This document shows, one piece after another, positions 48,401 through 62,410 of a stretch of DNA of 64,000 nt; positions within the stretch are counted from its first letter, which is position 1, and every line of letters begins with the position of its first letter. The stretch comes from an uncultured Acidobacteriia bacterium (lineage in GTDB: Bacteria > Acidobacteriota > Terriglobia > Bryobacterales > Bryobacteraceae): NCBI GenBank assembly GCA_903828455.1, contig CAIKMJ010000022.1:124001-188000 (forward strand), in the 5' to 3' direction. The notes beneath the pieces were generated by a model, which was given only the letters and a program-made list of their open reading frames with translations, was not told the DNA's origin and did no database searches. The position numbers were made by a program, and so were the translations under genes.

Positions 48401-48423
48401 AGGCCGGTTGCCGCGCCGGACAG

Positions 48424-48429
48424 TACAAT
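48424..48429 (+). promoter_or_regulatory. TACAAT box ahead of the second TMTC-like gene
   Basis: TACAAT within CAGTACAATG, again 8 bp before the GTG start, repeats the arrangement upstream of paralogue 1. This indicates that the duplication included the promoter and that each copy can be transcribed separately. Confidence 0.4.
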
Positions 48430-48437
48430 GTTCGTCA

Positions 48438-50357
48438 GTGCCAGTCGACTCATGTGAGCCGCCGCCGCGGGGCCGGATCAGCCGGACAGATTTGCTGGTG
48501 GCCGCCGTGATGCTGCCGGCGATTGCGCTCGCGTACGCGGCCGTATTCGGGTTCGGATTCATCGGGCTCGATGACGGCATCTACATCTACCGCAACCTCA
48601 ACCTCCGGGCGGCGCTTTCCACGCAAACTCTCGGGTGGCTGCTCCTTTCTTTCCAGCCCGACAACTGGTTTCCGGTGACGCGGCTCTCGCTGCTGGCCGA
48701 TTACAAATTGTTCGGTCTGCGGGCCGAGTTTTATCACGCGGAAAACGTGATGCTGCACGCGGCGGCGGCGCTGCTGCTCTATGCGTTCCTGCGGCGGGCG
48801 ACGAGCACGGTCTGGCCGGCCGCGTTCGCCGCGTTCGTCTTTGCGCTGCATCCGCTGCATGTGGAATCGGTGGCATGGATCTCCGAACGCAAGGACGTGT
48901 TGTGCGCCCTCTTCTGGTTCGCTACGCTGCTGGCGTGGGTGCGTTACACGGAGCGGCCCGGGGTGCGGCGATATCTGGCCGCGCTGGCGCTGTTCGGGCT
49001 CGGGCTGATGGCGAAGCCCATGATCGTTTCGCTGCCGTTTCTGCTGGTACTGCTGGACGTGTGGCCGCTGCGGCGCGCGTGGCGGCAGAAGCTGGCGGAA
49101 AAGGTGCCATTCCTTGGGCTTTCGCTCGCCGTGATGGCGATCACCGTAGTGGCGCAGCGGAGCGGCGGGGCGATTGTGTCGCTGCAGACGGCCCCGCTGC
49201 TGCTGCGCGCCGAAAACGCCCTGATCACCGTGACCATCTACATTGGCGACGCACTCTGGCCGGCGCGGCTGTGGGCGGACTACGCGTACCCGCAGAGCGT
49301 CGCGGCGTGGAAGGTGCTCGCCGCGGTGGCCGCGATTTCGGCGGTGTCGGCCGCCGTTCTTCTGCAGCGCAACCGGCGGCCCTATCTGGTGGCCGGATGG
49401 TTCTGGTTTCTGATCACGCTGATTCCGGTGATCGGGCTGGTGCAGGTGGGCCAGCAGGGCCGGGCCGACCGCTATATGTACGTCCCGCTGACCGGCCTCA
49501 CCGTGATGCTGGCGTGGGGCGCGGCGGAGGCGGTGGAGCGCTGGCCCTCCCTGCGGCGGGTCATTGCCGCGGCGGGCATCGCGGCGTGTGCGGCGATGGC
49601 GGTGAAGACCGCGCGGCAGGTGCAGTACTGGAAAGATACGGACACGCTGCTGAGCCACTCCATCGCGATGGACAGCGGCGACGATCTGGCGCTGAACTCA
49701 TACGGATACACGGCGGTACACAACACGGAGCGGGTGGCCGAGGCGACCGAGTATTACCGCCGGGCGCTGGCGATCCGGCCGGACAGCGCTGTTTATCACA
49801 GCAACCTTGGATACGCGATGTACAGGGCGGGCCGGCTGGAGGCGGCGACGGCGGAGTTCCGCGAGGCGGCGCGGCTCGATCCGGCCATGACGGACGCGTG
49901 GAGCAACGTGGCGGAGACTCTGAACGAGGAGGGCCGGCAGCAGGAGGCGCTCCGGGCGTACGAAGCGGGGTTGCTGGCGAATCCGCGGTCGGCAGCGCTG
50001 CACAACATGCTGGGCGCGATGTTGTGGAAGATTCCGGGGCGGCAGGAGGAGGGACTCCGGCACTTCGAACAGGCGGTGGCCCTGCGGCCGGACTTTGCCG
50101 GGGCGCGAACCAACCTGGGGACGGTATTGCTGGACAGGCCCGGGCGGCTGGACGATGCGGTGGCGCAGTTCGAGGCGTGGGTGCGGATCGAGCCGGGGTC
50201 GGCTGCGGCACACCGTGGGCTGGCGGGCGCGCTCGACCGGGTGCCGGGGATGGAGCCGGAGGCGGGCGACCAGCGCGAGGAGGCGGAGCGTTTGCAGGCG
50301 GAGGCCGGGCGTGTGTGCTCGGAGATTCGGGTGCCTGTCCCGGACGGGTGCAACTGA
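48438..50357 (+). CDS. TMTC-like membrane glycosyltransferase with C-terminal TPR repeats (paralogue 2)
   Basis: A 639-residue paralogue of the preceding gene with the same layout: FGFGFIGLDDGIYIYRNL, NWFPVTRLSLLADYKLFGL, FALHPLHVESVAWISERKDVL and GLMAKPMIVSLP in the GT-C part, then TPRs (ALAIRPDSAVYHSNLGYAMYRAG onward). Blocks of identity reach the DNA level (for example around GGATGGTTCTGGTTTCTGAT in both), so the duplication is fairly old but conserved in the core. The acidic motif is DD here versus DRDD in copy 1. The TPR segment has diverged most. GTG 48438 starts VPVDSCE, parallel to copy 1. Confidence 0.82.
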   Translation: MPVDSCEPPPRGRISRTDLLVAAVMLPAIALAYAAVFGFGFIGLDDGIYIYRNLNLRAALSTQTLGWLLLSFQPDNWFPVTRLSLLADYKLFGLRAEFYHAENVMLHAAAALLLYAFLRRATSTVWPAAFAAFVFALHPLHVESVAWISERKDVLCALFWFATLLAWVRYTERPGVRRYLAALALFGLGLMAKPMIVSLPFLLVLLDVWPLRRAWRQKLAEKVPFLGLSLAVMAITVVAQRSGGAIVSLQTAPLLLRAENALITVTIYIGDALWPARLWADYAYPQSVAAWKVLAAVAAISAVSAAVLLQRNRRPYLVAGWFWFLITLIPVIGLVQVGQQGRADRYMYVPLTGLTVMLAWGAAEAVERWPSLRRVIAAAGIAACAAMAVKTARQVQYWKDTDTLLSHSIAMDSGDDLALNSYGYTAVHNTERVAEATEYYRRALAIRPDSAVYHSNLGYAMYRAGRLEAATAEFREAARLDPAMTDAWSNVAETLNEEGRQQEALRAYEAGLLANPRSAALHNMLGAMLWKIPGRQEEGLRHFEQAVALRPDFAGARTNLGTVLLDRPGRLDDAVAQFEAWVRIEPGSAAAHRGLAGALDRVPGMEPEAGDQREEAERLQAEAGRVCSEIRVPVPDGCN

Positions 50358-50633: not shown

Positions 50634-50677
50634 TATAATTCCATCGACTTGCATTTCCAAAACTTTGCGGCTACACT
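50634..50677 (+). promoter_or_regulatory. Candidate promoters of the ilv operon
   Basis: Two options are visible. A perfect TATAAT at 50634-50639 lacks a good -35 but would give a leader RNA of about 190 nt, usual for attenuators. Alternatively TTGCAT (50649-50654) and TACACT (50672-50677) with a 17-nt spacer would start transcription about 7 nt before the leader peptide ATG. The sequence here is markedly AT-rich compared with the flanks. Confidence 0.5.
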
Positions 50678-50690
50678 GATAATTCCGGCA

Positions 50691-50771
50691 ATGCTCGTCA
50701 GCTTCACAGGCCGAATTACTGCGACAGTCTCTGTAGTAGAGATTCGCGTCGTAGTATCCGTCCCCGTCTGA
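50691..50771 (+). CDS. Valine-rich leader peptide of the ilvBNC operon
   Basis: A 26-codon ORF, ATG 50691 to TGA 50769-50771, encoding nine Val, two Ile and one Leu, with runs VV (15-16) and VVV (20-22). Four of the Val codons are GTA and the rest GTC, whereas the structural genes strongly prefer GTG. It has no obvious Shine-Dalgarno. It lies directly ahead of an antiterminator/terminator pair and of ilvB. This is the arrangement of ilv leader peptides, where ribosome stalling on scarce Val-tRNA controls transcription. Confidence 0.8.
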   Translation: MLVSFTGRITATVSVVEIRVVVSVPV

Positions 50772-50811
50772 GGCATCGGGCAGTCCAAAAGAACCGAGGC
50801 CATCAGCGGGG
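50762..50811 (+). promoter_or_regulatory. Predicted antiterminator helix of the ilv attenuator
   Basis: Bases 50762-50779 can pair with 50794-50811: CCCCG with CGGGG, CUGA with UCAG, GGC with GCC and UCGG with CCGA. That is about 16 pairs with one bulge on each side and one mismatch, closing a 14-nt loop. The helix captures the whole 5' arm of the terminator (50798-50806), so the two structures exclude each other. Its 5' strand covers the last leader codons and stop: a ribosome finishing the peptide would block it, one stalled at Val15-16 would not. A further hairpin at 50726-50744 spans Val15-16. Derived by eye. Confidence 0.65.
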
Positions 50812-50837
50812 TGTACAGCCCAACTGATGGCCTTTTT
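50798..50837 (+). terminator. Attenuator terminator upstream of ilvB
   Basis: A perfect 9-bp stem, GGCCATCAG (50798-50806) with CTGATGGCC (50824-50832), is followed immediately by TTTTTG. It lies 26 nt after the leader peptide stop and 30 nt before the ilvB start codon, so as an unconditional terminator it would silence the operon. This fits conditional attenuation. Confidence 0.9.
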
Positions 50838-50862
50838 GTATTTTCAGGAGTCATAAAAAAGT

Positions 50863-52608
50863 ATGCAGACCGAAACCGGCAAACTGATGAACGGCGCGGA
50901 GATCCTGCTGGAGTGCATGGCGCGGGAGGGCGTGGACGTCTTCTTCGGGTATCCGGGCGGCGTCACGCTGCCCTTTTACGATGCGCTGTACGACAGCCAC
51001 ATCAAGCACATTCTGGTGCGGCACGAAGAGAACGCGGCGTTCGCGGCGGGGGGATATGCGCGGGCCACGGGGAAGACGGGCGTGTGCTGCGCAACGTCGG
51101 GGCCGGGCGCGACGAATCTGGTGACGGGCCTGGTGGACGCGATGATGGATTCGATCCCGGTGGTGGCGATCACGGGGCAGGTGCATTCGAAGCTGATCGG
51201 CAGCGACGCGTTTCAGGAAGCGGACACGTTCGGGATTACGCGGCCGGCGACGAAGCACAACTTCATGGTGAAGACGCTGGCGGAACTGCCGCAGATTCTG
51301 CATGAGGCCTTTTATATTGCATCGAGCGGGCGGCCGGGGCCGGTGCTGGTGGATATTCCGAAGGACGTGTTCCAGGCGCGCGGGCATTACGTGCCGGTGG
51401 GCGCGATTCATCTGCCGGGCTACAAAGTATTTACGGAAGGGCACGCGGGGCAGATCAAGCGGGCGGCAGAGCTGATTCGGGAGGCGGAGCGGCCGCTGGT
51501 GTACGCGGGCGGCGGGATTGTGGCGGCTGGCGCGTCGGCGGAGCTGCGCGAACTGGTGGACCTGGCGAATCTGCCGGCGGTGACGACGCTGATGGCGCTC
51601 GGAGCGCTGCCGGCATCGCATCCGAACTACATCAGCATGCCGGGGATGCACGGGAGTTATGCGGCCAACATGGCGCTGACGGAGTGCGATCTGCTGATTG
51701 CGCTGGGGACGCGGTTCGATGACCGGGTGACGGGGCATTTGCCGTCGTTCGCGCGGCATGCGCGGGTGATTCACGTGGACATCGATCCGGCCGAAGTGGG
51801 CAAGAACCGGACGCCGGACATTCCGATTGTGGGCGACGTGAAGCGCGTGCTGCAGAAAATGGTGAAGGCGCTGCACGAGACCGAGGCGGAGCTGGGCAAG
51901 ACGAAGAACGGCCCGGCGCGGCAGGCGTGGCTGCAGAAGATAAACGATTGGAAGACGGAGTTCCCGTACGACCGGTCGCGGGCGGAAGGCGAAATCAAGC
52001 CGCAGCATCTGATGGACGAGATCGACCGGCTGTCCGGCGGGCAGGCGATTGTGACGGCGGACGTGGGCCAGCACCAGATGTGGGCGGCGCAGCTGATCCG
52101 GTTCAACGAGCCGCGGCTGTGGGTGAATTCGGGCGGGCTGGGGGCGATGGGGTTCGGTCTGCCGTCGGCTATCGGCGCTCAGATGGCGCGGCCCGATAAG
52201 CTGGTATTTTCGATCAGCGGCGACGGCGGGTTCCAGATGTCGCTGCCGGAGCTGTCGACGATCGCATCGAATCAGCTGCCGATTAAGATCATCGTGATGA
52301 ATAACGGCGTGCTGGGAATGGTGCGGCAGTGGCAGACGCTGTTTTACAACAACCGGCTGAGCTCGATCCAGCTGGATTGCTTCCCGGATGCGGAGAAGCT
52401 GGCGGCCGCGTACGGATTCAAGGGCCGGACGATCGATAAGCCGTGGCAGCTGGCGGAAGCGCTGGAAGAAGCGGTGAGGGAGCCGGGGCCGTATCTGCTG
52501 AATGTGAAGGTGACGCCGGATGAGAACGTGTACCCGATGGTGCCGGCGGGCGGGGCGATCAACGAAATGGTGATGGGTCCGGCGAAACCGGTGGAAGCGG
52601 GAGCGTAG
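50863..52608 (+). CDS. ilvB: Acetolactate synthase large subunit
   Basis: A 581-residue thiamine-diphosphate enzyme that condenses two pyruvates to acetolactate (valine/leucine) or pyruvate with 2-oxobutyrate (isoleucine). The catalytic Glu lies in LVRHEENAAFAAGGYARATG. The FAD/central domain and SGPGATNLVTGL are typical, and the ThDP motif begins ISGDGGFQM (G453) and runs on to the following VMNN. The length matches catalytic subunits. AGGAG lies about 12 nt before ATG 50863. It is the first structural gene of the operon, controlled by the upstream attenuator, and is followed 9 bp later by ilvN. Confidence 0.96.
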   Translation: MQTETGKLMNGAEILLECMAREGVDVFFGYPGGVTLPFYDALYDSHIKHILVRHEENAAFAAGGYARATGKTGVCCATSGPGATNLVTGLVDAMMDSIPVVAITGQVHSKLIGSDAFQEADTFGITRPATKHNFMVKTLAELPQILHEAFYIASSGRPGPVLVDIPKDVFQARGHYVPVGAIHLPGYKVFTEGHAGQIKRAAELIREAERPLVYAGGGIVAAGASAELRELVDLANLPAVTTLMALGALPASHPNYISMPGMHGSYAANMALTECDLLIALGTRFDDRVTGHLPSFARHARVIHVDIDPAEVGKNRTPDIPIVGDVKRVLQKMVKALHETEAELGKTKNGPARQAWLQKINDWKTEFPYDRSRAEGEIKPQHLMDEIDRLSGGQAIVTADVGQHQMWAAQLIRFNEPRLWVNSGGLGAMGFGLPSAIGAQMARPDKLVFSISGDGGFQMSLPELSTIASNQLPIKIIVMNNGVLGMVRQWQTLFYNNRLSSIQLDCFPDAEKLAAAYGFKGRTIDKPWQLAEALEEAVREPGPYLLNVKVTPDENVYPMVPAGGAINEMVMGPAKPVEAGA

Positions 52609-52617
52609 GAAGCAGAG

Positions 52618-53148
52618 ATGTTACAAACGATTTCGATTCTGGTGGAGAACAAGCCGGGGGCGCTGCTGCGTGTAACCGGCGTGCTTTCGGCCCGCGGGTA
52701 CAACATCGAGAGCCTGACGGTTGCCAAGACGCTGGACCCGCAGCTTTCGCGAATGACGATTGTGGTGGATGTGGAGGACCGCATCCGGACGCAGGTGATC
52801 AAGCAGATCAATAAGCTGATCAACGTGCTGCAGGCGACGGATATGACGGAGATTCCGTCGGTGATCCGTGAACTGGTGCTGGTGCGGGTGCGGTGCGGGC
52901 AGGAAGCGCGCACGGCGGTATTGAAGGAAGCGGAGATTTTCCATTCGCGGGTGGTGGATTCGTCGACCGACGGGTTTGCCATTGAAGCGACCGGCGACCC
53001 GGAGAAGCTGGACGAGTTTATTGAAGTGATGCGGACTTATGGCGAGATTGACGTGGCGCGATCGGGCGCTATCGCGATGTCGCTGGAGACGAAGAAGCTG
53101 CGGTTGCAGCCGCCGGTGGCGGCCCCGGTCGCGGTACAGGCAACTTAG
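52618..53148 (+). CDS. ilvN: Acetolactate synthase small (regulatory) subunit
   Basis: A 176-residue regulatory subunit that activates the large subunit and gives feedback inhibition by valine. Residues 1-75 are an ACT domain (TISILVENKPGALLRVTGVLSARGYNIESL), and the second half is the ALS_ss C-terminal domain (RELVLVRVRCGQEART ... GFAIEATGDPEKLDEFIEVM). This is the IlvH-like length. GGAAGCAGAG precedes ATG 52618. The 45-bp gap to ilvC contains repeated ACAACTTAG and a small AACTTAGTAAGTT inverted repeat but no terminator. Confidence 0.96.
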   Translation: MLQTISILVENKPGALLRVTGVLSARGYNIESLTVAKTLDPQLSRMTIVVDVEDRIRTQVIKQINKLINVLQATDMTEIPSVIRELVLVRVRCGQEARTAVLKEAEIFHSRVVDSSTDGFAIEATGDPEKLDEFIEVMRTYGEIDVARSGAIAMSLETKKLRLQPPVAAPVAVQAT

Positions 53149-53193: not shown

Positions 53194-54207
53194 ATGCCAC
53201 GCAGATTTTACGAAAAAGACGGAACCACAGAGCCCCTGAAGGGCAAAACGATTGCGATCATCGGCTATGGCAGCCAGGGTCATGCGCACGCGCTGAACCT
53301 GCGGGACTCGGGTCTCGAAGTGATCGTCGGACTGCCGGAAGGCTCGAAGAGCCGGGCGAAGGCCGAAGCCGCCGGGCTGCGCACCGTGACGCCGGCCGAC
53401 GCGGTGAAGGAAGGCGATGTGATCATGCTGCTGGTGCCCGATCACGTTCAGGCCGATCTTTATCAGAGCGACATTGAACCGAATCTGAAGCCGGGCAAGA
53501 CGCTGATGTTCGCGCACGGGTTCGCGGTTCACTTCGGCTTCATCACGCCGCCCAAGGATATCGACGTATCGATGATTGCGCCGAAGGCTCCGGGTCACCG
53601 GGTGCGCGAAGTGTTCGTGGAAGGTTCGGGCGTGCCGGCGCTGGTGTCGGTGTATCAGGACGCGAGCGGACATGCGCTGGAAAACGCGCTGGCGTATGCG
53701 GCGGGCATCGGATCGCTGCGCGCGGGCGTGATCGAGACCACGTTTAAGGAAGAAACGGAAAGCGATCTGTTCGGCGAGCAGGCCGTGCTTTGCGGCGGCG
53801 CGGCGGAACTGATCCGGGCCGGCTTCGAAACGCTGGTGGATGCGGGTTATGCGCCGGAAATCGCGTACTTCGAATGTCTGCATGAGCTGAAGCTGATTGT
53901 GGATCTGATCTACGAAGGCGGCCTCGCGTATATGCGGTATTCGATTTCGGATACGGCGGAGTACGGCGATTACACGCGCGGACCGCGCATTGTGAACGAC
54001 GAAACGCGCAAGGAGATGAAGAAGATCCTGAGCGAAATTCAGTCGGGCCAGTTTGCGCGCGAGTGGATGGCGGAGAACAAAGAGGGCCGTGCGAAGTTCC
54101 TCGGGATGCGGGCGGCGCAGGCCGATCAGCGGATCGAGAAGGTCGGCGGCGAGCTGCGTAAGATGATGACGTTCCTGAAGCGGAACAAGGAAGTCGGCGT
54201 CGCGTAG
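53194..54207 (+). CDS. ilvC: Ketol-acid reductoisomerase (class I)
   Basis: A 337-residue NADPH-dependent enzyme converting acetolactate to dihydroxyisovalerate (and the isoleucine analogue). The Rossmann motif is [19 protein letters not shown] (22-40), in which the phosphate-binding loop continues as [14 protein letters not shown]. The knotted C-terminal domain includes [17 protein letters not shown] with metal-binding Asp/Glu and [19 protein letters not shown]. The short class I form lacks the duplicated domain of enterobacterial IlvC. GAAGGA precedes ATG 53194. Confidence 0.96.
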
Positions 54208-54245
54208 TTAGTCAGAAGTGAGTGTTTTTCGGTAAGAACCCGGTT

Positions 54246-55853
54246 ATGCGCATTTATACGTTCGATACCACTCTCCGGGACGGCTCGCAGGGCGAAGCGG
54301 TCTCTTTCTCGGTCGATGACAAGATGCTCATCGCGAGAAAGCTGGATGAGATTGGCATCGACTATATAGAAGGCGGATGGCCGGGTTCGAATCCGAAAGA
54401 CAAGGAGTTTTTCGAGCGCGCGAAGACGGAGCTGAAGCTGCAGCATGCCAGGCTGACGGCGTTTGGCTCGACGCGTTTCGCGCGCAATTCGGTGCAGGAA
54501 GACCGGAATGTGCGGGAGTTGCTGGACGCGGGGACGCCAACGATCTGCATCTTCGGCAAGACGTGGGATTTCCACGTGACGCGCGCGCTGGGCATCACGG
54601 AAGAAGAGAACCTGAAGATCATTTCCGAGACCGTGAAATATCTGAAGGACCACGGCAGGGAAGTGATTTACGACGCCGAACATTTCTTCGACGGCTATAT
54701 TCACAATCGCGATTTTGCGCTGCGCACGCTGGAGGCCGCGAAGAAGGCCGGGGCGGATGTGCTGTGCCTTTGCGATACGAATGGCGGCACGCTGACAGGC
54801 TATCTGGGGCAGATCGTGAGCGAAGTGCGGGCGCGGTTCGATGGCGTGCTTGGCATCCACACGCACAACGATTCGGACGTGGCGGTGGCGAATTCGCTGG
54901 CCGCGGTGGAGAAGGGCGTGACGCATATTCAGGGCGTGCTGAACGCATACGGCGAGCGCTGCGGGAATGCGAATCTGGCGTCGATCATCGCGAACCTCGA
55001 ACTGAAGATGGGGCACGAAACGATCGGCCCGGAGAAGCTGCAGAAGCTGACGGGGACGGCGCGGTACATTGCGGAACTGGCGAATCTGCCGATGCGGAAA
55101 GATCAGCCGTATGTGGGGCAGAGCGCGTTTGCGCACAAGGGCGGCGTGCATGTCAGCGCCGTGATGAAAGATTCGACGACTTACGAGCATGTGGCGCCGG
55201 AATTAGTGGGGAACCGGCAGCGCGTGTTAGTGAGTGACTTATCGGGCCGCAGTAATGTGCTGTATAAGTTGCAGGAGCAGGGGCTGGCGGGTCGACTTAC
55301 AGAAGATGCGCGGAAGTTACTGCTGGAACGGGTGAAGGAAGCCGAGTATCTGGGTTACGACTTAGAGGCTGCGGACGGGACGTTCGAGTTATTCGTGCGG
55401 CAGGCGCTGCATCCGGAACAGAAGTTTTTCGATTTGAAGGGTTATGAGGTTTCGATCCGGTCCGGCGTGGGCGATACGCCGCACGCGACCGCGACCGTAA
55501 CGGTGGCGACGGAAGATGGCAGCATCCACAGCGATGCGGCGACGGGCCACGGGCCGGTCCATGCGCTGGATGTGTGCCTGCGGAAGTGCCTGGGGGCGCT
55601 GTATCCGCGGATCGGCGATGTGCGGCTGACCGATTACAAGGTGCGGGTCCTCGATTCGAAGAAGGGCACGGCGGCGAAGGTGCGGGTGCTGGTGGAGTGG
55701 AGCGACCATCAGAAGAGCTGGTCGACGGTGGGCGTATCGGACGACGTGATTGAGGCGAGCTGGAATGCGCTGGTAGATGCGTTAAGGCTGGAGCTGATGC
55801 GGCTGGCGGAGGATGCGTCAGGGGTGAGCGGGGCGGTGGAGGCCGTCAGGTAG
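54246..55853 (+). CDS. cimA: Citramalate synthase
   Basis: A 535-residue member of the 2-isopropylmalate/citramalate synthase family. The N-terminal YTFDTTLRDGSQGEAVSFS, YIEGGWPGSNPKD and LGIHTHNDSDVAVANSL (metal-binding His-x-His-Asn), with HIQGVLNAYGERCGNANL, are those of CimA-type enzymes (the GWPGSNPKD block separates them from LeuA). Citramalate synthase makes citramalate from pyruvate and acetyl-CoA, a threonine-independent route to 2-oxobutyrate for isoleucine. That suits its place after ilvBNC. The C-terminal LeuA dimer/regulatory domain is present. ATG 54246 is chosen over GTG 54222. A patch of TTA leucine codons occurs at 55200-55395. Confidence 0.92.
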   Translation: MRIYTFDTTLRDGSQGEAVSFSVDDKMLIARKLDEIGIDYIEGGWPGSNPKDKEFFERAKTELKLQHARLTAFGSTRFARNSVQEDRNVRELLDAGTPTICIFGKTWDFHVTRALGITEEENLKIISETVKYLKDHGREVIYDAEHFFDGYIHNRDFALRTLEAAKKAGADVLCLCDTNGGTLTGYLGQIVSEVRARFDGVLGIHTHNDSDVAVANSLAAVEKGVTHIQGVLNAYGERCGNANLASIIANLELKMGHETIGPEKLQKLTGTARYIAELANLPMRKDQPYVGQSAFAHKGGVHVSAVMKDSTTYEHVAPELVGNRQRVLVSDLSGRSNVLYKLQEQGLAGRLTEDARKLLLERVKEAEYLGYDLEAADGTFELFVRQALHPEQKFFDLKGYEVSIRSGVGDTPHATATVTVATEDGSIHSDAATGHGPVHALDVCLRKCLGALYPRIGDVRLTDYKVRVLDSKKGTAAKVRVLVEWSDHQKSWSTVGVSDDVIEASWNALVDALRLELMRLAEDASGVSGAVEAVR

Positions 55854-58942: not shown

Positions 58943-61900
58943 CTAAGATCCCAGCACTTCCATCGTGTCCGGTCCGCAGATCCGAGTCAGCTCGGCGCGG
59001 AATTCGCGGTCGGGGCGGACCTTCACGGGAACGTCGAGAATAACGGAGAAGTCGCGGGCGGCCTCGAGGCGGAGGCGGACCTGGGTGTCGCCGGGCTTGC
59101 GCGCGAAAAGCTTGTTGAGTTCTTCGGCGCGGTCCATGCCGTTTCGGTTCATCCAGACTTTGATGCCGATGAGCGAAGGCAGCGGCACGCGCGCCACGTC
59201 GAGCGGGATGATTTCCTTCACCGAGATCTTGGTGGGGTTGCCTTCTTCGGGGAGGGCGGAGCCGCGGATGAGCACGGCCTGATCTTCAACGAGCATCTTC
59301 TGCAGAGCTTCGTACTGCGTGGTGAAGACCATGCCGTCAATGTTGCCGAGGCGGTCTTCGATAATGAACGACGCCCAGGGTTTGCCTTCGCGGTTGCGGC
59401 GGCGCTGGATGGCGGTGATGAGGCCGCAGAGCGCCACTTCGTTCCCTTTTTCGAGGCCGTCGAGCTTCGAAGAATCGTGCGAGGCGAGTTCGCTGATTTT
59501 GTCGGCATAGGCATCGAGCGGGTGACCGCTGACGTAAAAGCCGAGGAGCTCCTTTTCGCCCTGAAGTTTTTCGCGCGGAGTCCAGTCGGTGGCTTTCGGG
59601 AGCGGCGGCTCGGGAGTATCTTCAGCGGGACCGCCGCCGAAGAGGCCGGCCTGGCCGGAATCGCGGTCGCGGGCGGCGCGGGTGCCGGTTTCGATGGCAC
59701 TGTCGAGAGCAAGCAGAAGCTGCGCGCGCGTGCCTTCGAACGCGTCCATGGCGCCGGCGCGGATGAGGCTTTCCAGTACGCGGCGATTGATGGCCTGCAT
59801 GTCGGCCTGCTCACAGAACTGGAAGATGGAGTGGAAGCCGCCGACTTCGTTACGCGCCCTGATGATGGCTTCCACGGCGCCCTGGCCCACGTTCTTCACG
59901 GCGCCGAGGCCGAAACGAATGGCGTCGCCGCTTTCAGTGCGGACGGGCGTGAACGTGTACTCGCTGGCGTTGACATCCGGCGGCAGCACGTTGATCTTCA
60001 TGTCGCGGCATTCGTTGATGTACTTCACGACCTTGGCGACGTTGCCGGTTTCCGACGTGAGCAGCGCGGCCATGAAATCCACCGGGTAGTGCGCTTTGAA
60101 CCAGGCGGTCAGAAACGCGACGTACGAATAAGCGGCAGAGTGGGACTTGTTGAAGCCGTAGCCGGCGAACTTCGCCATCAGGTCGAAGACCTTCTCCGAC
60201 TTTTTGGAAGGATGGCCGCGTTCGGCGGCGCCGGCGACGAAGCGGGCGCGCTGCTTATCCATCTCCTCCACATTCTTCTTGCCCATGGCGCGGCGCAGAA
60301 TGTCGGCGTCGCCTAGCGAGTAACCGGCGACGCGATTGGAGATCTGCATCACCTGTTCCTGGTAGATCATGACGCCGTAGGTTTCTTCGAGCACTTCCTT
60401 CATTTCAGGAAGATCGTAAGTAACGGGCTGGCGGCCGTGCTTACGCTCGATGAAGTCATCGATCATGTCCATCGGGCCCGGACGGTAGAGCGCGTTAAGT
60501 GCGGTGAGGTCCTCGATGCGCGACGGCTGGTAGCGGCGCAGAATGTCGCGCATGCCGGGCGATTCGAACTGGAAGATGCCGCTGGTGTAACCCTTGCAGA
60601 AGATTTCGTAGGCGGGCTGATCGTCCAGCGGAATTTCTTCGGGCACGATCTTCACGCCGTGGCGCTTTTCGATGAGCTTGAGCGCGTCGTCGATGAGCGT
60701 GAGCGTCGTGAGGCCCAGGAAGTCCATCTTGAGAAGCCCGAGCTTATCGAGGCCGCTCATGTCGTACTGGGTGACGACTTCGTCCTTGTTGGTGCGGTGC
60801 AGCGGGACGATGTTGCGCAGCGGAACCGGCGAGATGACGACGCCGGCGGCGTGTACCGAGGAGTTGCGGGCGAAGCCTTCGAGGCGCGTGGCGACGTCGA
60901 GGACTTCCTTTACTCGCGGATCCTGTTTGGCGAGGGCGTCGAAGCCGGGTTCGGTTTCGATGGCCTTTTTCAGCTTGATGTTGAGTTCGTTGGGGACGAG
61001 CTTGGTGACCTTGTCGACGTCGGCGAAGCTCATGTCGAGAACGCGGCCGACGTCCTTAATGGCGGCACGCGCGCCGAGCGTGTTGAAGGTGATGATCTGC
61101 GCGACCTGTTCGCGGCCGTACTTGCGGGTGACGTACTGGATGACTTCGCCGCGGCGGTTCATGCAGAAATCGACGTCGATATCGGGCATGCTGACGCGTT
61201 CGGGGTTGAGGAAGCGTTCGAAGAGCAGGCCGTACTGCAGCGGATCGATATCGGTGATCTGCATGGCGTAGCCCACGAGGCTGCCGGCTGCGGAACCGCG
61301 GCCGGGGCCGACGGGAATGCCCTGCGATTTGGCGTAGCGGATGAAGTCCCAGACGATGAGGAAGTAGCCGGAGAACTTCATCTGCTGGATCATGCGGATC
61401 TCGAATTCGAGGCGCACGGCGTAGGCTTCGAGCGGATGCTTCAGGGTGCCGGCGGCGGCCATGGCTTCGAGGCGCGGGCGGCGCTTTTCGAAACCCTCGC
61501 GCGCGATGTAGGCGAACCACGTGTCGGTGGTGTGGGCTTCGGGAATATCGAAGCGCGGGAAGGGGTCTTTAACCTTTTCGAGCTTGACGGCGCAGCGCTG
61601 GGCGATTTCCCAGGGGCGGTTGACGGCGTCTTCGAGTTCGCCGAACAGGGCCATCATCTCGTCGCGCGATTTCAGGTAGAAATCGGGATGATCCCAGTGC
61701 ATGCGGTTGGGGTCAGACATGGTTTTGCCAGTCTGGATGCACATGAGGATTTCGTGCGCCCGGGCGTCGTCGCGGCGCAGGTAATGGGAGTCGTTGGTGG
61801 CGACGAGGGGGATGCCGGTATCGATGGAGAGGCGGTTCACCTGGGGGGTGAGGCGTTTGTCCTGTTCGAGACCGTGATCCTGAATTTCGAGGAAGAAGTT

Positions 61901-62410
61901 GTCCTTGCCGAAGATGTCGCGGTAGGTGTGGGCGAGGCGGCGTGCGTCTTCGTACTTATCGGCGAGGATAGCTTCGTTGGTGTCGCCGCGCAGGCAGGCG
62001 GAAAGACAGATGAGGCCCCTGGAGTGCGCCGCGAGCAGGTCTTTATCGACGCGGGGCTTGTAATAGAAGCCTTCGAGCGAAGCGGTGGAGACCAGCTTGA
62101 CGAGATTCTGGTAGCCTTCCTGGTTTTCGCAGAGAAGAACGAGGTGGTTGTAACGGTCCGATTCGGTGCGGCTCTTGTGGTCCTTCGCGACGTAGACTTC
62201 GCAGCCGAGAACGGGGTGGATCTCTTTGGCTTTGGCGGCGTTGTAGAACTCGACGGCGCCGAAGAGGTTGCCATGGTCGGTCATGGCGACGGCGGGCATT
62301 TGCTGCGAGGCGACGACGTCCATGAGCTGCCTGATTTCGCATGCGCCATCGAGCAGCGAGTAATCGGTGTGATTGTGGAGGTGGACGAAGGGTGTGGCGG
62401 GAATCGACAT
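58943..62410 (-). CDS. dnaE: DNA polymerase III alpha subunit
   Basis: A 1155-residue replicative polymerase. The N-terminal PHP domain begins FVHLHNHTDYSLLDG and includes AMTDHGNLFGAVEF. The palm carries PDIDVDFCMNRR with the catalytic aspartates after GPGRGSAAGSLVGYA. The third Asp and the fingers lie in the MDFLGLTTL and GIFQFESPGMR region. Helix-hairpin-helix sequence (FNKSHSAAYSYVAFLTAWFKAHYPVDF) and a C-terminal OB fold (LCGLITAIQRRRNREGKPW) follow. This is a standard DnaE1 length with intact-looking PHP histidines. It reads toward the TfoX-like gene with a 6-bp gap. The terminator at 62428-62451 separates it from the upstream ABC genes. Confidence 0.96.
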   Translation of the reverse strand: MSIPATPFVHLHNHTDYSLLDGACEIRQLMDVVASQQMPAVAMTDHGNLFGAVEFYNAAKAKEIHPVLGCEVYVAKDHKSRTESDRYNHLVLLCENQEGYQNLVKLVSTASLEGFYYKPRVDKDLLAAHSRGLICLSACLRGDTNEAILADKYEDARRLAHTYRDIFGKDNFFLEIQDHGLEQDKRLTPQVNRLSIDTGIPLVATNDSHYLRRDDARAHEILMCIQTGKTMSDPNRMHWDHPDFYLKSRDEMMALFGELEDAVNRPWEIAQRCAVKLEKVKDPFPRFDIPEAHTTDTWFAYIAREGFEKRRPRLEAMAAAGTLKHPLEAYAVRLEFEIRMIQQMKFSGYFLIVWDFIRYAKSQGIPVGPGRGSAAGSLVGYAMQITDIDPLQYGLLFERFLNPERVSMPDIDVDFCMNRRGEVIQYVTRKYGREQVAQIITFNTLGARAAIKDVGRVLDMSFADVDKVTKLVPNELNIKLKKAIETEPGFDALAKQDPRVKEVLDVATRLEGFARNSSVHAAGVVISPVPLRNIVPLHRTNKDEVVTQYDMSGLDKLGLLKMDFLGLTTLTLIDDALKLIEKRHGVKIVPEEIPLDDQPAYEIFCKGYTSGIFQFESPGMRDILRRYQPSRIEDLTALNALYRPGPMDMIDDFIERKHGRQPVTYDLPEMKEVLEETYGVMIYQEQVMQISNRVAGYSLGDADILRRAMGKKNVEEMDKQRARFVAGAAERGHPSKKSEKVFDLMAKFAGYGFNKSHSAAYSYVAFLTAWFKAHYPVDFMAALLTSETGNVAKVVKYINECRDMKINVLPPDVNASEYTFTPVRTESGDAIRFGLGAVKNVGQGAVEAIIRARNEVGGFHSIFQFCEQADMQAINRRVLESLIRAGAMDAFEGTRAQLLLALDSAIETGTRAARDRDSGQAGLFGGGPAEDTPEPPLPKATDWTPREKLQGEKELLGFYVSGHPLDAYADKISELASHDSSKLDGLEKGNEVALCGLITAIQRRRNREGKPWASFIIEDRLGNIDGMVFTTQYEALQKMLVEDQAVLIRGSALPEEGNPTKISVKEIIPLDVARVPLPSLIGIKVWMNRNGMDRAEELNKLFARKPGDTQVRLRLEAARDFSVILDVPVKVRPDREFRAELTRICGPDTMEVLGS

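Follow-up and report, generated by a model that had tools for sequence, protein, structure and literature searches.

The window analysed here, a stretch of 64,000 nucleotides, comes from a soil Acidobacteriota bacterium whose best named matches are to Bryobacterales, and it carries on its plus strand four genes in the order ilvB-ilvN-ilvC-leuA, separated by short gaps. The first structural gene, ilvB (50863–52608; Pfam TPP_enzyme N, M and C), encodes the large subunit of acetolactate synthase and is followed by ilvN for the small subunit (52618–53148; ALS_ss_C, ACT), ilvC for ketol-acid reductoisomerase (53194–54207; KARI_N, KARI_C) and a gene for a leuA-type 2-isopropylmalate synthase family protein (54222–55853; HMGL-like, LeuA_dimer). 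The first-pass annotation of this DNA had described the operon as ilvBNC; all three genes are present, but the description is incomplete because leuA is also included. Immediately 5' of the putative attenuator described below lies a plus-strand gene (48408–50357) whose product has a PMT_2 mannosyltransferase-like domain and, after it, many TPR repeats, and the window also encodes a DNA polymerase III alpha subunit on the minus strand (58943–62410; PHP, DNA_pol3_alpha, finger and HHH_6), all by Pfam.

Upstream of ilvB, positions 50691–50771 of the plus strand hold a short open reading frame, MLVSFTGRITATVSVVEIRVVVSVPV, of 26 codons. Nine of them encode valine (codons 3, 13, 15, 16, 20, 21, 22, 24 and 26; four GTA, five GTC and no GTG) and two isoleucine, and at the valine frequency of the window's own genes the probability of nine or more valines in 26 codons is 1.5e-4. 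The likely control codons are GTA and GTC for valine and ATT for isoleucine, and an Ile/Val-rich leader recurs in Bryobacterales relatives. The earlier description of nine valine codons, four of them the locally rare GTA, is accurate, since the ilvB, ilvN, ilvC and leuA genes of the window together contain 9 GTA against 108 GTG, 13 GTC and 5 GTT codons.

Between the leader and ilvB lies an intrinsic terminator (50796–50837, plus strand), whose core is a perfect 9-bp stem (GGCCATCAG, 50798–50806, with CTGATGGCC, 50824–50832) followed by TTTTT. In the fold predicted by RNAfold the core is lengthened by two pairs, to GAGGCCATCAG (50796–50806) with CTGATGGCCTT (50824–50834), and the U-tract runs from 50833. 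A terminator scan missed this element because it admitted loops of at most 8; RNAfold recovers it. The 5' arm of the terminator is overlapped by the 3' arm (50794–50811) of an alternative helix, the antiterminator, whose 5' arm (50762–50779; CCCCG, CTGAGGC, TCGG) mimics the terminator 3' arm and contains the leader stop codon TGA (50769–50771); with 16–17 pairs, this helix is the predicted fold if the RNA ends before the terminator 3' arm. Both the perfect 9-bp terminator with its U tract 30 nt before ilvB and the antiterminator of roughly 16 bp enclosing the leader stop had been proposed at first pass, and both were found where they had been placed.

The whole leader (50684–50862) folds with a z-score of -5.45 relative to dinucleotide shuffles. 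When untranslated it is predicted to form the terminator alongside a long-range leader pairing, and the ribosome-free default is therefore predicted to be "off". The minimum free energy fold of the untranslated leader includes a candidate protector, or anti-antiterminator (50692–50782, plus strand), which pairs 50692–50697 with 50777–50782 and 50701–50706 with 50769–50774; duplexes are also seen in relatives, and in genus g1 pairing is possible between the first six leader codons and the antiterminator 5' arm. Own partners paired better than swapped ones in 1992/2000 comparisons for family f1 and 1954/2000 for genus g1 (that is, 8/2000 and 46/2000 the other way). Since the same test did not reach significance when restricted to the other f1 genera, there is moderate support from sequence that the protector pairing is real.

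A predicted promoter precedes the leader at 50649–50677 of the plus strand, with TTGCAT as the -35 element (50649–50654), a 17-bp spacer and TACACT as the -10 element (50672–50677). It occupies the same place relative to the leader in 32 of 33 f1 relatives, which have TTGCAT (once TTGCGT), a spacer of 16–18 bp and TAnnnT, and in which an in-frame start codon follows 4–25 nt past the -10 element, mostly 6–13. From this position, and taking transcription to start 6–8 nt past the -10 element, the transcript would begin with the leader start codon or a few bases ahead of it, and the mRNA is therefore likely to be near-leaderless. The first-pass annotation had named a transcription start downstream of the leader as a finding that would speak against attenuation; the conserved promoter-like element in f1 lies just upstream of it. 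The TTGCAT–TAnnnT pattern is absent from the f3 family.

Ribosome-mediated transcription attenuation of ilvBN-ilvC-leuA appears to be the best explanation of this arrangement, with a probability that we put at about 0.93 from sequence and modelling; the earlier term "translational attenuator" should accordingly read transcription attenuator controlled by translation. For stalling, termination, start site, kinetic order and sensed amino acids we infer the following scheme. Transcription would begin at the leader start codon or immediately upstream of it, allowing a ribosome to load without delay. When Val-tRNA is plentiful (in relatives also Ile-tRNA), the ribosome would reach the UGA at 50769 and its footprint would cover the antiterminator 5' arm, whereupon the terminator would form and RNA polymerase would be halted at the U-tract ahead of ilvB. 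Under a shortage of Val-tRNA, the ribosome would stall between Val13 and about Val20 and leave the antiterminator 5' arm free, so that the antiterminator would already have formed by the time the terminator 3' arm is synthesized, and transcription would continue into the operon. In an untranslated leader, pairing of the opening codons with the antiterminator 5' arm may hold the operon in the off state.

Folding of only the RNA downstream of a modelled ribosome footprint gave 15–17 antiterminator pairs with the A site at Val13 to Val20, 10–15 at Val21–22 and none at the stop codon, which is the on/off logic expected from folding with and without a footprint, as had been suggested at first pass. 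The stalling site then proposed, Val15–16, falls within the predicted window of stalling but is not its sole position, as that window extends from Val13 to about Val20/21. A point against the model is that a ribosome stalled at the last valine codons (22, 24 and 26) would cover part of the antiterminator. At equilibrium the terminator is more stable once its 3' arm exists, even with the antiterminator region free, and a ranking of helix energies was rejected as a test of the switch for that reason; the switch would therefore have to be kinetic and decided co-transcriptionally, which is the usual assumption for attenuators.

The gene ilvB is present in 56 of 61 relatives, and the attenuator architecture was found 5' of it in nearly all Bryobacterales genomes examined. 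The upstream DNA read for genus g1, for family f1 and for two further families of the order, f2 and f3, contains an Ile/Val-rich ORF whose end keeps a constant position with respect to a hairpin, either terminator-like or competing. A detector requiring an Ile/Leu/Val-rich ORF, a terminator and an antiterminator of at least 6 bp recognized 37 of 48 Bryobacterales upstream regions and none of 192 dinucleotide shuffles. L128, from another order of the same class, has no such leader arrangement 5' of ilvB. In a 35-sequence alignment, both sides had changed in 7 of 12 antiterminator pairs and in 6 of 9 terminator pairs (0/500 shuffles for each, shared ancestry being ignored), and antiterminator arms in relatives read, for example, CCCCGTC/AGCGGGG, ATTCGCC/GGCGAAA, GCCTGCT/AGCAGGC and CCCCTAC/GGAGGGG. 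With the antiterminator register set by hand as the seven bases before the leader stop, own partners formed 6.34 of 7 pairs, compared with 5.63 (sd 0.08) for swapped partners (0/10000, shared ancestry again ignored). One of the antiterminator arms is coding, and the pairing is therefore kept on top of the coding constraint. The first-pass claim of a complete ribosome-controlled attenuator in an acidobacterium, and its expectation of a Val-rich ORF conserved 5' of ilvB in relatives, are thus supported by a conserved leader and two alternative pairings that are conserved and covary.

These data bear directly on one alternative, an ordinary terminator without attenuation, next to which the Val-rich ORF is either fortuitous or encodes a trans-acting small protein. 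We regard it as very improbable: the antiterminator pairing covaries though one arm is coding and the other non-coding, the leader ORF ends within an antiterminator arm, the arrangement arose in 0/192 shuffles, and the leader codons are biased at the synonymous level. A point in its favour is the Bryobacterales MAG L033, which keeps a similar promoter element, TTGCAT, 5' of ilvB without an Ile/Val-rich leader or a terminator, an apparent loss of the attenuator.

Six f3 loci (L119, L120, L122, L124, L126 and L127) strongly keep the leader end and the antiterminator, with a competing hairpin that lacks a clear U-tract, and in L127 the leader stop codon is lost as well; their output mechanism may differ. 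Together with the actinobacterial cys operons, which have leader peptides and no obvious terminators (PMC1262725), these loci would fit ribosome-controlled regulation through Rho or through access to the ribosome-binding site in place of an intrinsic terminator. For the element as a whole this is highly unlikely, because the window and most relatives have a clear terminator and U-tract, there is covariation in the terminator helix, and the terminator ends 30 nt 5' of the ilvB ATG (50863) and leaves the AGGAG at 50846–50850 uncovered. Attenuation at an intrinsic terminator remains the preferred reading.

The composition of the leaders points to the signal that would be sensed. Over the last 20 codons of 47 leaders, compared with the ilvB genes that they precede, valine reaches 25.7% versus 8.2% and isoleucine 15.3% versus 6.0%, with no enrichment of leucine (5.0% versus 8.7%). 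Valine rather than a mixture, as initially suggested, thus describes the window's genus, in which valine probably dominates; across the order, the sensed signal is likely to be valine plus isoleucine. Synonymous choice is strongly skewed: GTA makes up 133/242 (55%) of valine codons in leaders versus 88/1550 (5.7%) in ilvB (odds ratio 20, p 2e-73), GTG 5% versus 42%, and ATT 61% of isoleucine codons versus 22%. Among its 45 tRNA matches the genome has one tRNA-Val gene each with the anticodons GAC, UAC and CAC; by the usual decoding rules GTG is readable by two of these tRNAs and GTA by one. In theory, attenuator leaders use the codon whose tRNA loses its charge most readily, and the GTA preference fits this selective tRNA charging theory (PMC1183508). 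A very stable hairpin within the leader coding sequence (50717–50756, plus strand), seen in the RNAfold structure of the untranslated leader, contains GTA codons and might either act as a pause site or contribute independently to the GTA bias.

Among known systems, E. coli ivbL senses valine and leucine and has an ordinary ribosome-binding site, unlike the acidobacterial leader, which is probably near-leaderless and in which leucine is not enriched. The enterobacterial ilvBN (ivbL), ilvGMEDA and trp attenuators share the principle that two segments compete for a third and that a stalled ribosome leads to antitermination (PMC1183508). To that extent the first-pass comparison with enterobacterial ilv logic holds, but the element more closely resembles the ilvB attenuators of Actinobacteria (Corynebacterium, Mycobacterium). 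Like it, the Corynebacterium glutamicum ilvBNC operon (ilvB-II) has a short leader that contains Val/Ile/Leu codons, among them a GUA control codon, and a model of terminator, antiterminator and anti-antiterminator (PMC11857589, PMC10272879). The inferred start at or near the leader start codon likewise matches C. glutamicum ilvBNC, where the transcription start and the leader start codon are one nucleotide apart (PMC11857589), and Sinorhizobium meliloti trpL, where the 5' end of the attenuator mRNA is the leader AUG, although trpL senses tryptophan through a 14-aa leader (PMC7298713). The C. glutamicum leader, from a different phylum, has 15 aa (MTIIRLVVVTARRLP), lacks the Val-rich end of the acidobacterial leader and uses a leucine codon for control, whereas leucine is not enriched here. 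The acidobacterial RNA has no Rfam match at any of the thresholds used, and the ilvB-II motif was compared by architecture; common ancestry of the leader peptides was considered and is not claimed. In Mycobacterium tuberculosis ilvB1NC, GUA is also regulatory, and a ribosome that has reached the UGA hides the antiterminator, thereby allowing an intrinsic terminator to form; its sequence, operon context and regulatory codons (LVVI) are different, and support there is experimental, here computed (PMC13236596). The ilvB-OMG and Leptospira ilvB motifs are structured RNAs 5' of ilvB with BCAA-rich uORFs, with runs of valine in Leptospira, but they are also Thr-rich, and no covariance match to them was obtained here, provided that Rfam 15 includes them (PMC10272879).

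Because ppGpp riboswitches control some ilvB genes (PMC10272879), a small-molecule riboswitch or a T-box with an incidental leader could be envisaged. Searches with all 4227 Rfam models returned no match for the window at the gathering cut-off or for nine loci, including the window's own, at E-values up to 1, and conservation was seen in the coding leader and in two alternative helices but not in anything resembling an aptamer core; we consider such control extremely unlikely.

Outside Bryobacterales, the detector recognized 7 of 57 other acidobacterial regions (1/228 shuffled) and none of 75 regions from other phyla. Convincing cases occur in f34, f51, f29 (L168), f16 (L169), f26 (L176) and f37 (L189, L196), and in several of them the leader stop lies inside an antiterminator arm that copies the terminator 3' arm; the matches in L192, L193 and L199 may be due to chance, and the detector found no case in the f8 genomes read. 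The f34 attenuators (L144, L159) precede ilvN-ilvB. L145 (f51; G321, complement of 1501–1585) combines a poly-Val leader (MLLLSNAVVTNPDVLVGVVVVVTVVRPTG) with a perfect 12-bp antiterminator and precedes a gene that by its first residues looks like prephenate dehydratase (pheA); ilvB follows downstream. L169 (G069, f16) and L168 (G251, f29) have leaders 5' of ilvB dominated by isoleucine rather than valine, which suggests that acidobacterial families differ in the residue sensed. With covariance model R1, most of the sub-threshold matches read across the phylum (L141, L143, L146–L152) had no BCAA leader and were discarded, and no convincing second copy was found in the window's own genome: the minus-strand match at the attenuator site is a mirror of the terminator, and that at C8:20508 has no Ile/Val leader. 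It is possible, if doubtful, that these elements and those of Bryobacterales form an uncatalogued, Acidobacteriota-wide class of near-leaderless BCAA attenuators, in which the leader stop is embedded in a sequence that copies the terminator 3' arm, tRNA-Val(UAC), the only one to read GTA, is the main reporter of valine scarcity, and f3 has replaced the U-tract terminator by another output.

The element in the window thus appears, from sequence comparison and modelling, to be a conserved ribosome-controlled transcription attenuator, with a mechanism known from other phyla. A literature search found no description of this ilvB element; a comparative study (Lopatovskaya et al. 2010, doi 10.1134/S0026893310010164) might bear on it, and priority is not claimed. 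According to a 2010 survey, functions were lacking for nearly all predicted acidobacterial attenuators (PMC2965389); the Bryobacterales attenuator would have both an operon and a signal assigned to it, as well as covariation evidence spanning an order. It would also offer an independent case of attenuator codon choice, with rare GTA preferred and common GTG avoided, that can be compared with the selective tRNA charging theory (PMC1183508), and its probably near-leaderless leader would make it a simple system in a little-studied phylum.
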